This document shows, one piece after another, positions 1-53,189 of a stretch of DNA of 64,000 bases. This DNA is from Deltaproteobacteria bacterium (GTDB lineage Bacteria > Myxococcota_A > UBA9160 > JAFDDA01). The notes beneath the pieces were generated by a model, which saw only the letters and a program-made list of their open reading frames with translations, was not told the DNA's origin and made no database searches. Location of the stretch: NCBI GenBank assembly GCA_019311105.1, contig JAFDDA010000018.1, positions 1 through 64,000 of the forward strand. Direction: 5' to 3'. The translations under genes and the position numbers were made by a program. Within the stretch, counting starts at the first letter, position 1; the number at the start of each line of letters is the position of its first letter.

Positions 1-602
1 GTCGGCACGCGCGCTGCTCGGGCCGCTCGGCGGTACGGTGGTCGCGGTGTTCGTGCTGGCCTCGATCCTCGGCACGCTCAATGCGACGGTGCTCGTGGGC
101 CCGCGGATCCCGTACGCCATGGCCCTCGACCGTCTCTTCTTTCGGGGCGTCGACGCCACGCACCCGCGCTTCGGCACGCCCCACATCGCCATCGTGCTCC
201 AGGGCCTGGTGTCAGTGGTGCTGCTGGGAATCTTCCAGGGCTTCCCGGATTCGCTGTTCGCCAGCGCCCTCGACTACACCGTATTCGCCATCGTGCTCGC
301 CACCATGGCCGACACCCTGGCCCTCTACCGCCTCCGGCGTGCTCGCCACCATGGCCGACACCCTGGCCCTCTACCGCCTCCGGCGTCTCCAGCCCGACCG
401 CCCGCGCCCGTACCGGGCCTGGGGCTACCCGTGGGTGCCGGCGATCTACATCGCGGTGAATGCCTGGATCGCCTTCGAGATGCTTCGCCAGCGGCCCTTC
501 GAGTGCGCCGTTGGCCTCGCCGTGGTGGCCACGGGCTGGCCCTTCTACGTGGCCTTCCGCAGGCGCGCCAGTGGCCCCGGAGAGGCCCCAGCCGATGCCT
601 GA
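1..602 (+). pseudogene. APC-family amino acid permease, C-terminal part, frameshifted by a 46-bp tandem duplication
   Basis: Frame 2 gives ...NATVLVGPRIPYAMALDRLFF...FAIVLATMADTLALYRLRR; after the duplicated 46 bp (292-337/338-383) the protein continues in the frame of ORF 81..602 (VLATMADTLALYRLRRLQPDRPRPYRAWGYPWVPAIYI). 5' end outside window. Confidence 0.75.
292..383. repeat. 46-bp perfect tandem duplication (2 copies)
   Basis: cgtgctcgccaccatggccgacaccctggccctctaccgcctccgg occurs twice back to back; 46 is not a multiple of 3. Confidence 0.95.
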
Positions 603-28066: not shown

Positions 28067-28198
28067 TGGGCTGAGCTTGATCCCGGTGTCGAGTTCCTGT
28101 GGGCTGAGCTTGACCCCGGTGTCGAGTTCCTGTGGGCTGAGCTTGACCCCGGTGTCGAGTTCCTGTGGGCTGAGCTTGACCCCGGTGTCGAGTTCCAT
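28067..28198. repeat. 4 x 33-bp tandem repeat, each unit a hairpin
   Basis: tgggctgagcttgaccccggtgtcgagttcctg x4 (copy 1 has tccc, copy 4 ends ccat). Confidence 0.95.
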
Positions 28199-30738: not shown

Positions 30739-31305
30739 ATGAGCGGCCGGGTGGAAGAGCTGGGCGCCCTCGAAGCCATGGCGAGGCCAGAGCTCGAAGG
30801 GGCCTTCGAAGCCTTCGTGGTCTCGCACCGCGAGCGTGCCCGGCGCCTCGCCTGGCGCCTGGTCGGAGGGGACCTCGGCGCTGCGGAGGACGTGGCCCAG
30901 GATGCGTTCCTGCGCGCCTACCGATCGCTCGGCCGATTCCGGCAGGAGGCAACCCTCTCGACCTGGTTCTACCGGATCCTGGTCCGGCAGGCGGCGAACC
31001 ACCGCCGCTGGCGGCAGCTGCGCGAACGGATGGGCGGCTGGGGCGACCCGGAGGCCGCCGACCCGAGGGTTGCGCCGCCGGGCGACCCGGCGCTGCGGCT
31101 CCGGATCTCGAGTGCCATGGAGGAGCTCACCGGGAGGCAGCGTGAGGTGTTCGTGCTGATCCACCTGGAAGGCTTCACCGTGCGAGAAACCGCGGCCCTG
31201 CTCGGGCGGCCGGAGGGAACGGTGAAGAGTCACCTGCATCGGGCGCTCGCGCGCTTGCGCCAGGAGCTGGCCGATCTGCGCGACCTGGAAGGAGCGAACT
31301 CGTGA
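30739..31305 (+). CDS. ECF RNA polymerase sigma factor
   Basis: Sigma region 2 (GGDLGAAEDVAQDAFLRAYRSLGRFRQEATLSTWFYRI) and region 4 (LTGRQREVFVLIHLEGFTVRETAALLGRPEGTVKSHLHRALARLRQ). Confidence 0.95.
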   Translation: MSGRVEELGALEAMARPELEGAFEAFVVSHRERARRLAWRLVGGDLGAAEDVAQDAFLRAYRSLGRFRQEATLSTWFYRILVRQAANHRRWRQLRERMGGWGDPEAADPRVAPPGDPALRLRISSAMEELTGRQREVFVLIHLEGFTVRETAALLGRPEGTVKSHLHRALARLRQELADLRDLEGANS

Positions 31306-31418
31306 ACGATCGAGGCGACCTGGAAGGAGAGAACTCGTGAACGATCGAGGCGACCTGGAAGGAGAGAACTCGTGAACGATCGAGGCGACCTGGAAGGAGA
31401 GAACTCGTGAACGATCGA
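31279..31418 (+). repeat. 4 x 35-bp tandem repeat containing RBS + TGA stop + GTG start
   Basis: gcgacctggaaggagagaactcgtgaacgatcgag x4 (copy 1 has gagcgaac); GTGs at 31302, 31337, 31372, 31407. Confidence 0.97.
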
Positions 31419-31763
31419 GAACACGACGGACGCGAGCCCTGGCTCGAAGAACTCGATCGACATTGGCGGCCCGAAGCCCTCGATGACGTCGGTCGCGCCC
31501 GCTTCGACGCCCGGCTTCGCGAGCGGATGGACGCGACGGCACGGCCCTCGCTGGTGCGTCGCCTCGCACCGGTGGCGATCGCGCTGGCCCTCATGGCCCT
31601 CGCGGGTCTAGCCCTCCGGTCGCCCGAGGTTCCGCCCGCCGACGAGACGCAGCTCGCAGCTTGGGAGTGGGAGTTGCTGCTCAGCGATGAATTGAATGAC
31701 GAGGATTCGAGCACCCTGCCCGAGGAGTACTCGGCCATCGCGAGTGCCTTCCTGATCCGCTGA
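31407..31763 (+). CDS. single-TM putative anti-sigma factor
   Basis: Directly downstream of ECF sigma; 118 aa with one TM (LVRRLAPVAIALALMALAGLAL). Confidence 0.65.
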   Translation: MNDREHDGREPWLEELDRHWRPEALDDVGRARFDARLRERMDATARPSLVRRLAPVAIALALMALAGLALRSPEVPPADETQLAAWEWELLLSDELNDEDSSTLPEEYSAIASAFLIR

Positions 31764-31787: not shown

Positions 31788-32420
31788 ATGAGACGAAGCT
31801 CACTGACCCTTGCGACCTTGGCATGGCTCGCGATCACTGGAATCGCGGAGGCCCGCCCACCGCATGGCCCGATGGGCGCCGGCCCGCCGCCGGGCGCCAT
31901 GCTCGACTTCCACGCCGACGAGCTCGGTCTGGACGAAGACACGCGTGAGACGATCCGAGAGATCGTCGAGGAGTCCCACACCGAAGGCCGCGCCCTGCAC
32001 GGTGAGGTCCGAGAGGCGCGCGAGGCACTCCATCGGGAGCTGAAGGCGGAGCCGGTGGACCACGATGCCGTAATGGCCTTGGTCGAGCGCGCCGGCGCCC
32101 TCGAGACCGAGATGGAGAAGCATCGCATCGAGACGATGCTCGAGATCCGCGACCAGCTTTCGCCCGAGCAGCGCACCGCGTTGGTGGAGCTCCGCGGTCG
32201 GATGCGAGACCTCCACGTGAAGCCGATCCTGGACGCCTGCGAGGCGGACGCGGAGGCGTTGTGCGAGGCCGGCAATCCGCGAGCGATCCACTGCCTGATG
32301 CGCCAACGGGGGGAGGTCTCCGAACAATGCGCGGCGGCTCTGGACGGGTTGCCTCGTCGCTTCGGTCGGGGTCACGAAGGCGAGGGGCACGGCCCGCCGC
32401 GTTTCGGGCCCGGCCGGTGA
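31788..32420 (+). CDS. Spy/CpxP-like periplasmic protein with C-terminal Cys-rich repeat
   Basis: Signal peptide; ELGLDEDTRETIREIVEESHTEGRALHGEVREAREALHREL...IRDQLSPEQRTALVELRGRM; then CEADAEALCEAGNPRAIHCLMRQRGEVSEQC. Confidence 0.75.
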   Translation: MRRSSLTLATLAWLAITGIAEARPPHGPMGAGPPPGAMLDFHADELGLDEDTRETIREIVEESHTEGRALHGEVREAREALHRELKAEPVDHDAVMALVERAGALETEMEKHRIETMLEIRDQLSPEQRTALVELRGRMRDLHVKPILDACEADAEALCEAGNPRAIHCLMRQRGEVSEQCAAALDGLPRRFGRGHEGEGHGPPRFGPGR

Positions 32421-50505: not shown

Positions 50506-51594
50506 ATGCTCGCGACGCGTGACGATCAAAGCCGCCCCGAGTGGCGCGATTGGGCCTGGCAGATGCGCCACCGCGTGCGCAGCGCCGAAGGCCTCGCGGA
50601 GTTCGTCGACCCGGTCGTCGACGAGGTGGCGGCGGTCGCCGCGCTGGCCGACCGCTTCCGGTTCGTCATCACGCCCTACTACGCCTCTCTGATGGATCCG
50701 AACGACCCCGAATGCCCGATCCGCCGGCAGGTCGTCCCGCGCGGTGCGGAACTCGACGACCCGGCGGGCCTCGCCGACCCGCTCGACGAGATCGCCCACT
50801 CGCCCGTGAAGAACGTGATCCGGGTCTACGCAGACCGGATCGCCTTCTGTGTGAACAACGAGTGTGCGCTCTACTGCCGGTATTGCCTGCGCAAGCGCAT
50901 GGTCGGCGACGAGGATTGGACGATGAGGCGGCGCGAGCTCGAGACGGCGCTCGCGTGGATTCGCGAGACGCCGTCGATCCGCGACGTCCTGCTCACGGGC
51001 GGCGATCCGCTCGTCTTCTCGGACGACAAGCTCGCGTGGCTGCTCGGCGAGCTGCGCGCCATCCCGCACGTCGAGATCGTGCGGCTCGGAACCCGGCTGC
51101 CCGTGACGCTGCCCTTCCGCGTGACGCCCGAACTCTGTGAGATGCTGGCCGAGCATCATCCGGTCTGGGTGAACACCCACTTCAACCATCCCCGCGAGCT
51201 GACCGCCGAGGCAGCCGAGGCCTGCGATCGCCTCACCCGCGCGGGCATCCCGGTGGGTAACCAGAGCGTCCTGCTGCGCGGCATCAACGACGACACCGCC
51301 ACGATGAAGGCCCTGTGCGAGGGGCTCGTTCGCATGCGCGTCCGCCCCTACTACTGCTACCAGGCCCAGCTGCTCGAAGGGACGGGGCACTTCCGCGTCC
51401 CGATCGAGGACGGCATGGCGCTCTTCCGCGGCCTGCGCGGCCGCACCAGCGGCTTCGCGATCCCGCTCTACGTGCTCGACACGCCCCACGGCAAGGTGCC
51501 TCTGACCCATCCTCACGTCCGGGGCCGTGAGGGCGACGACGTGGTGGTGGAGACCTTCGAGGGCAAGCTCTGGCGCGAGCCGAACCCTCTGTGA
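50506..51594 (+). CDS. kamA: lysine 2,3-aminomutase family radical SAM protein
   Basis: NNECALYCRYCLRKRMVG (Cx3Cx2C), LLTGGDPLVFSDDKL, THFNHPRELT, RPYYCYQAQLLEGTGHF. Confidence 0.9.
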   Translation: MLATRDDQSRPEWRDWAWQMRHRVRSAEGLAEFVDPVVDEVAAVAALADRFRFVITPYYASLMDPNDPECPIRRQVVPRGAELDDPAGLADPLDEIAHSPVKNVIRVYADRIAFCVNNECALYCRYCLRKRMVGDEDWTMRRRELETALAWIRETPSIRDVLLTGGDPLVFSDDKLAWLLGELRAIPHVEIVRLGTRLPVTLPFRVTPELCEMLAEHHPVWVNTHFNHPRELTAEAAEACDRLTRAGIPVGNQSVLLRGINDDTATMKALCEGLVRMRVRPYYCYQAQLLEGTGHFRVPIEDGMALFRGLRGRTSGFAIPLYVLDTPHGKVPLTHPHVRGREGDDVVVETFEGKLWREPNPL

Positions 51595-51652
51595 CGACAC
51601 TGTGAGCGAAGGGGGCCGCCCTCTGTGACGACACCATGAGCGAAGGGGGCCG
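51585..51652 (+). repeat. 2 x 34-bp tandem duplication of the kamA/murJ junction
   Basis: ccctctgtgacgacactgtgagcgaagggggccg / ccctctgtgacgacaccatgagcgaagggggccg; two mismatches turn GTG into ATG. Confidence 0.92.
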
Positions 51653-53189
51653 CCGGCAGATCGGCGCCGCGGCGTTGCTGCTCTCGGGCAGCATCGTGGC
51701 ATCGCTGTTGCTCGGCTTCGTGCGCGAGGCCGTGCTGGCCTACCAGGTCGGCGCCGGCGCCGAGACCGACGCCTACAAGGCGGCATTCCAGATCCCCGAC
51801 TGGATCAACTACATGCTCGCGGGCGGGGCGCTCTCGGTCGCCTTCATTCCGCTCTATACCCGGCGGCTCGAAGAGAGCGAGGAGGCGGCCGAGCGGCTCG
51901 TCGGCGTCGTGCTCGGCACGGCATTCGTGGCGGTCACCGTGCTGACCGCCTTGCTCTGGTGGCAGACGCCCGCGTTGGTCGATCGTGCGTTTGGCGGCTT
52001 CGATGCCGAGACGCGCGCGCTGACGAGCCGCCTCACGCGGATCGTGCTGCCGGCTCAGATCTTCATCGTGGTGGGAAGCATCTTGCGCGGCGTCCTGATG
52101 GCGCGTGGCAGCTTCGCCTCCCAGGCGGCGGCGCCCCTCCTCTACAACCTCTCGATCATCGCCGGCGGCCTGCTGCTCGCGCCGCGCATGGGGATCGAGG
52201 GCTTCTCCTGGGGGTGCCTGGTCGGCGCGGTGGTCGGGCCCTTCCTGCTGCCGCTGTGGGACGTGTTGCGGCGGGGCTTCCGCCTCCGGATGCGCTTCTC
52301 GCTCCGCGACCGCGACTTCCTCCAGTACGTGGCCCTCGCGGCGCCCCTGACCCTCGGCGTGACGCTGCTGACCGTGGACGAGTGGTACGACCGGCTGGTG
52401 GGCAACCATCTGGCCGAGGGCACGATCGCGCTGCTCTTCTATGCACGGTTGTTGATGCAGGTCCCGATCCGGGTCGTCGGGCAGGCGACGGCAACGGCCG
52501 CGATGCCGACCCTTTCGCGCTTGTTCACCGAGGGGGATGTCAGCGGCTTGAATCGCATCCTGCTCGACACGTTGCGGGTGGCGGTCGGGGTGGCCGTGCT
52601 CGCCGCGACCGGGCTGGCGGTGCTGGCCGAGCCGGTGGTGAGGCTCGTCTACGAGCGCGGTGCGTTCGGGGCCGAGGACAGCGCGAACGTCGTGGTGATC
52701 CTGCGCATCATGACCCTCGCCGTGCCGGCGTGGGTGATCCAGCAGATCGCCGTGCGCGGCTTCTACGCCCGGGCCCAGATGTGGAGCCCGATGATTCTCG
52801 GCACCGTCGTGGCCTTGCTCGCGATCCCGCTCTACGTCGCTCTCGGTCGCGAGTCGGGCGCCGAGGGGCTGGCGGCGGCCGGGGTCTTTGCGATCTGGGC
52901 GAACGCGTTGGCGACCCTCGCGCTGGGGCGCAGCCTGCATCGTGCGCCGGAGTTCGCGGCCCTGGCGGCCTCCTTCGCCCGGGCCGCCTTGATCGCGGTG
53001 GCCGCGGGCGCCGCGGCGGCGTGGGTTCCAGCGGGTGAACCCAGCATGCTCGGTGCGCTGGCCCAACTGGGGCTCGGGGGCGCGGTGTTTGGCGTCATCA
53101 CGGGGCTGGGCATCCTGACCGTGGGCGACGCGCCGCTCCGCGGCGCGATGCTGCGTTTCGTTCCGGGCCGTTCGGCGGGTGCGGGTTGA
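51636..53189 (+). CDS. murJ: lipid II flippase MurJ
   Basis: GSIVASLLLGFVREAVLAYQVGAGAETDAYKAAFQIPDWINYMLAGGALSVAFIPLY. Confidence 0.92.
   Translation: MSEGGRRQIGAAALLLSGSIVASLLLGFVREAVLAYQVGAGAETDAYKAAFQIPDWINYMLAGGALSVAFIPLYTRRLEESEEAAERLVGVVLGTAFVAVTVLTALLWWQTPALVDRAFGGFDAETRALTSRLTRIVLPAQIFIVVGSILRGVLMARGSFASQAAAPLLYNLSIIAGGLLLAPRMGIEGFSWGCLVGAVVGPFLLPLWDVLRRGFRLRMRFSLRDRDFLQYVALAAPLTLGVTLLTVDEWYDRLVGNHLAEGTIALLFYARLLMQVPIRVVGQATATAAMPTLSRLFTEGDVSGLNRILLDTLRVAVGVAVLAATGLAVLAEPVVRLVYERGAFGAEDSANVVVILRIMTLAVPAWVIQQIAVRGFYARAQMWSPMILGTVVALLAIPLYVALGRESGAEGLAAAGVFAIWANALATLALGRSLHRAPEFAALAASFARAALIAVAAGAAAAWVPAGEPSMLGALAQLGLGGAVFGVITGLGILTVGDAPLRGAMLRFVPGRSAGAG

Follow-up and report, generated by a model that had tools for sequence, protein, structure and literature searches.

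Three neighbouring genes lie on the forward strand of the window, by which we mean the whole stretch of 64,000 nucleotides that was analysed (Table 1). The first is certainly an ECF sigma factor gene (Pfam PF08281 and PF04542), and orthologues of its product, 70% identical, are present within the same order. The second codes for a protein of 118 aa with no match to any Pfam or NCBIfam family and no meaningful sequence match in the PDB. Relatives keep both its place and its pattern, which combines an N-terminal region with a single hydrophobic segment and, close to the C-terminus, an LPxxYxAIA motif. The third encodes a Metal_resist-like protein, and proteins of this kind come next in most orthologous loci, as judged there by eye rather than by a family scan. 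Given this CnrH/CnrY/CnrX-like layout, the label of anti-sigma factor for the conserved one-TM protein is reasonable but unproven, and the protein is referred to here as the putative anti-sigma.

The sigma gene and the putative anti-sigma gene are joined by a tandem array. TRF run on the window placed it at 31280–31419, with a period of 35, 4.0 copies, 99% match and a score of 273. This agrees with an earlier note on the same DNA, which had described a 35-bp unit present four times, each with an RBS-like motif, a TGA and an overlapping GTG, except that the coordinates given there (31279–31418) are one base low. Array copies 2–4 are identical to each other, and copy 1 departs from them by one base (GGAGCGAAC vs GGAGAGAAC). 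The stop codon of the sigma gene (TGA, 31303–31305) falls inside the first unit, and the four GTGs are at 31302, 31337, 31372 and 31407. The first three each open a 12-codon ORF, VNDRGDLEGENS (M first if initiated), whose TGA overlaps the following GTG as GTGA, and the fourth is the start of the putative anti-sigma, a start backed by orthologue alignment; on all these points the earlier reading was correct. An SD-like GGAAGGAG stands 6–7 nt upstream of each GTG, with a predicted SD duplex of −8.0 kcal/mol in copy 1 and −8.8 kcal/mol in copies 2–4. The array-derived peptide stems from the sigma factor's own end (C-terminus RDLEGANS, giving RGDLEGENS). Shuffling the entire window 30 times by dinucleotides gave four arrays in total (period of at least 18, match of at least 88%), and a chance origin of the 35-bp array is excluded because the shuffled windows never scored above 77.

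Table 1. Genes, arrays, mini-ORFs and frameshifting duplications (positions are those of the window unless another locus is named)
Feature	Position	Strand	Details
ECF sigma factor gene, 188 aa	30739..31305	+	PF08281, PF04545, PF04542; stop inside first 35-bp unit
Tandem array, 35 bp x 4.0	31280..31419	+	unit: SD-like GGAAGGAG, GTGA stop/start overlap, next-ORF start
Mini-ORF 1	31302..31340	+	12 codons + TGA
Mini-ORF 2	31337..31375	+	12 codons + TGA
Mini-ORF 3	31372..31410	+	12 codons + TGA; overlaps anti-sigma GTG
Putative anti-sigma, 118 aa	31407..31763	+	one hydrophobic segment; conserved across orthologues
Metal_resist / LTXXQ (CnrX- or Spy/CpxP-like) protein, third gene	31788..32420	+	PF13801 E=2.9e-21, PF07813 E=1.5e-8
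34 bp x 2.1 duplication, kamA-type / murJ-type junction	51585..51654	+	mini-ORF GTG 51602 to TGA 51628
32 bp x 3.8 array, response-regulator-like / PilZ-like junction	L245:9933-10055 (G000:C71)	-	ATGA four times
Perfect two-copy duplication, 46 bp	292-386		frameshifts a CDS
Perfect two-copy duplication, 40 bp	L113:2473-2552		frameshifts a CDS
Perfect two-copy duplication, 31 bp	L147:12490-12552		frameshifts a CDS
Perfect two-copy duplication, 28 bp	L240:3508-3564		frameshifts a CDS

Orthologous junctions

The earlier note had proposed that the junction be aligned in close relatives; here it was read in genomes of the same order as the window genome, all from other genera and families. In each of the 25 distinct orthologous operons with a readable junction, the end of the sigma gene and the beginning of the downstream gene overlap directly. 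The overlap is RTGA at −4 nt in 19 operons and another short overlap, of 1 to 14 nt, in the remaining six, and a 35-bp-type array or spacer was found in none of the 25. Therefore, the array is private to the window genome. Since it is only there that the downstream start lies 101 bp past the sigma stop, the array arose in this lineage on an otherwise directly overlapped junction; judging from these orthologues, the ancestral junction would have been a direct stop/start overlap.

In another Myxococcota MAG (L036, just after 3510), a repeat of another kind, purine-rich and GAAGGAAGAGAA-like, occupies the same sigma/anti-sigma junction, where it is flanked by two in-frame ATGs belonging to the downstream gene.

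Short tandem duplications in the genome

To survey short tandem duplications, TRF was combined with a simple gene finder based on codon usage, the gene calls of which are rough, and applied to a sample totalling 1.377 Mb and covering 29% of the genome (the window, L112–L191 and L232–L251 of G000). The sample contained 56 arrays with a period of at least 18 and a match of at least 88%, and the periods of those outside called genes cluster at 28–36 bp. Twenty-nine near-exact arrays of 26–46 bp were not inside a called gene; at least four of these shift the frame of a CDS and thereby split its gene call, so that about 25 are truly extragenic. A stop codon is covered by 17 of the 29, whereas 300 runs of random placement that avoided the inside of CDS gave 4.8 on average and 12 at most. 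No array of the 26–46-bp class was found in the two relatives that served as the only control for array density (0.4 Mb each, 0.8 Mb in total). Such an excess of duplications at the ends of genes is clearly a mutational signature specific to this lineage. The perfect two-copy duplications display 0–3 bp of microhomology, and the duplication process is therefore independent of pre-existing repeats.

Two candidate sources were rejected. Ku (PF02735), needed for Ku-dependent end joining, was not found in the genome, which is about 90% complete, and the relative G010 possesses Ku yet has no array of 26–46 bp in 0.4 Mb. A CTAG hotspot is likewise not apparent, as 6 of the 17 stop arrays contain CTAG and 366 of all 1205 gene stops end in CTAG, which leaves no clear excess. 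An apparently intergenic array of 33 bp x 3.9 was also seen in the window at 28067–28196, ahead of a DnaQ/exonuclease-like gene.

Two further arrays lie at stop/start junctions of the same genome (Table 1); the response-regulator, PilZ, kamA and murJ labels of their flanking genes were assigned from the sequences by eye rather than with a family library. The array at the response-regulator-like/PilZ-like junction contains three chained mini-ORFs (MTQIMQQGART, MTQIMQQGAQT and MTQIMQQGVRI, each followed by a stop) and derives from the QQGART tail of the regulator, giving MQQGART. Its copies have diverged, and every start, stop and SD-like motif is still present. No array of this type was seen in the stretches read upstream of PilZ-type proteins in relatives, where the loci are too diverged to reveal the ancestral spacing. 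The kamA/murJ junction has a unit of 34 bp, with stop and start 10 nt apart, and a mini-ORF of 8 codons (VSEGGRPL and a stop); the start is GTG in copy 1 and ATG in copy 2, and no SD motif was detected at this duplicated junction. The units of the three junction arrays are unrelated to one another in sequence. At each of the three junctions the mini-ORF closes on the following copy of the stop, and the units at the two RTGA overlaps, 35 and 32 bp, are both 2 mod 3. Closure in three out of three has a chance of 1/27, but the rule was noticed post hoc and is suggestive only.

The presence of similar arrays at unrelated gene ends speaks for a general mutational process rather than a device specific to the sigma operon. 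A further possibility is that a dispersed MIRU-like mobile repeat was inserted at the junction. The coupling geometry of −4 nt is that described for MIRUs (PMC12548453). However, a genome search with the array sequence returned a single location, its own junction, and the units at the other junctions are unrelated, each being built from its own flanking genes. The mobile-repeat reading is thus already contradicted, and we regard it as extremely improbable.

Alternatively, the junction might really have one or two units, the array of four being produced by errors in sequencing or assembly. The assembly is fragmented (258 contigs), and the frameshifts caused by at least four perfect two-copy arrays, which may be either errors or very recent mutations, would fit such an explanation. 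Random errors, however, should fall mostly inside CDS, which make up about 87% of the sample, whereas most 26–46-bp arrays are elsewhere; moreover, copy 1 of the sigma junction has a private base and the L245 units have diverged from one another. As most arrays avoid positions where they would frameshift a CDS, and one base differs between the copies, we consider an artefact quite unlikely.

Origin and possible translation of the array

Taken together, the array probably arose when the native GTGA overlap was tandemly duplicated in this lineage, as one product of a genome-wide process duplicating segments of about 26–46 bp, and it has probably been tolerated, with a modest effect. On this reading, the most likely one, small duplications arose in a burst across the genome and the array is one that was tolerated. 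It would have survived because both flanking proteins stay intact when a stop/start overlap is duplicated and because, with a unit of 35 bp (2 mod 3), the frame opened by each duplicated start closes precisely at the duplicated stop that follows.

A chain of coupled mini-ORFs would then take the place of the single overlap. Ribosomes ending the sigma gene would reinitiate at GTG 31302, cross the three 12-codon ORFs via termination-reinitiation at each GTGA and only then enter the putative anti-sigma gene; each of the four SD motifs may, in addition, recruit fresh ribosomes. Of 14 overlapping pairs examined in published work, 13 were strictly coupled, and in E. coli coupling does not preclude new initiation (PMC6728339). 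By analogy with what has been proposed for mycobacterial MIRU mini-ORFs, the chain probably preserves termination-reinitiation coupling. The array could alter the amount of the second protein made, although the net change in the anti-sigma:sigma ratio would probably be modest.

A simple flow model illustrates the possible consequences of copy number. If S is the ribosome flow ending the sigma gene, p the probability of reinitiation at an overlap and d the amount of new initiation that each unit adds, the flow after n overlaps would be R* + p^n (S - R*), where R* = d/(1-p). More copies would push anti-sigma output towards R*, that is, down if R* < S and up if R* > S; the sign of any copy-number effect is thus unreadable from sequence. 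Folding predicted an opening energy of 11.7–13.6 kcal/mol at every GTG for 1 to 6 copies, and an attenuator based on RNA structure was rejected on account of these flat values.

These considerations apply to the tunable attenuator of the anti-sigma:sigma ratio suggested in the earlier note, the copy number of which could vary by slippage. In a fuller form of this suggestion, each added stop/start would shed ribosomes, copy number would fix the ratio, and slippage would vary it under selection, such as metal stress. Near-identical tandem units are a slippage-prone type of sequence. The suggestion accords with this property of the array, with mini-ORFs that are chained, closed in frame and provided with good SD motifs, and with the sensitivity of sigma and anti-sigma to stoichiometry; moreover, Cupriavidus metallidurans mutants that have lost CnrX or the anti-sigma CnrY are selected by zinc (PMC4803752). 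On the other hand, arrays of the same kind occur at unrelated gene ends throughout the genome and in none of the 25 other orthologous operons, predicted accessibility is unchanged by copy number, and with strong initiation at each SD added units need not cut output. The junction amplification and the closed mini-cistrons of that suggestion stand, whereas for its function nothing goes beyond anatomy and GTG accessibility is flat. Since the sign of an effect is unreadable and accessibility flat, we favour viewing the chain as a by-product that preserves coupling, with attenuation, which we hold to be unlikely, as a minority view. It is rather unlikely, too, that junction arrays in this lineage are kept as ribosome relays, in which duplications obeying the closure length rule would set the stoichiometry of coupled genes by small heritable increments, a route of dose tuning distinct from promoter or RBS mutation.

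Some points speak against the by-product explanation that we favour. Stop codons are struck more often than simple tolerance predicts (17 vs about 5 expected), and therefore something beyond tolerance may act at gene ends. In addition, a reading frame is disrupted by no fewer than four of the perfect two-copy duplications, the gene calls are rough and the density control consists of two relatives. If the chain is translated, its four near-identical stop-start steps on one transcript would constitute a natural test of multi-step termination-reinitiation, which would reveal the loss per step and whether short duplications retune operon stoichiometry.

Comparison with known systems

The operon resembles the CnrH-CnrY-CnrX system of Cupriavidus in the clustering of an ECF sigma factor, a short membrane protein and a Metal_resist periplasmic-type protein. 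An ECF sigma gene (PF08281/PF04542) adjoins one for a Metal_resist protein (PF13801) in the window, and this recurs in most orthologous loci. The gene order differs, however, being cnrYXH in the former and sigma first in the latter, and the membrane protein of the window has no sequence match to a known anti-sigma family. With VNTRs and phase-variable repeats the array shares near-identical tandem units whose number could change; unlike in those, gain or loss of 35 bp disrupts neither protein.

RTGA termination-reinitiation pairs (PMC6728339) have a stop/start overlap with the SD inside the upstream gene, and all the sigma/anti-sigma orthologues overlap in a comparable way. The array differs from such pairs in having four overlaps in series, three of them opening 12-codon ORFs, rather than one. 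Each of its four GTGA overlaps is accompanied by the SD-like GGAAGGAG, from which coupling is predicted.

MIRUs, exemplified by the senX3-regX3 case, are likewise short repeated units at gene junctions with a mini-ORF coupled downstream at −4 nt, the geometry that mini-ORF 3 has with GTG 31407. Such coupling is proposed to let a MIRU insertion precede a gene with little effect (PMC12548453). MIRUs are, however, a dispersed and apparently mobile family, whereas the array has one genome location and units differ between loci. What is new in comparison to MIRUs is that each array comes from the junction at which it lies and not from a dispersed family.
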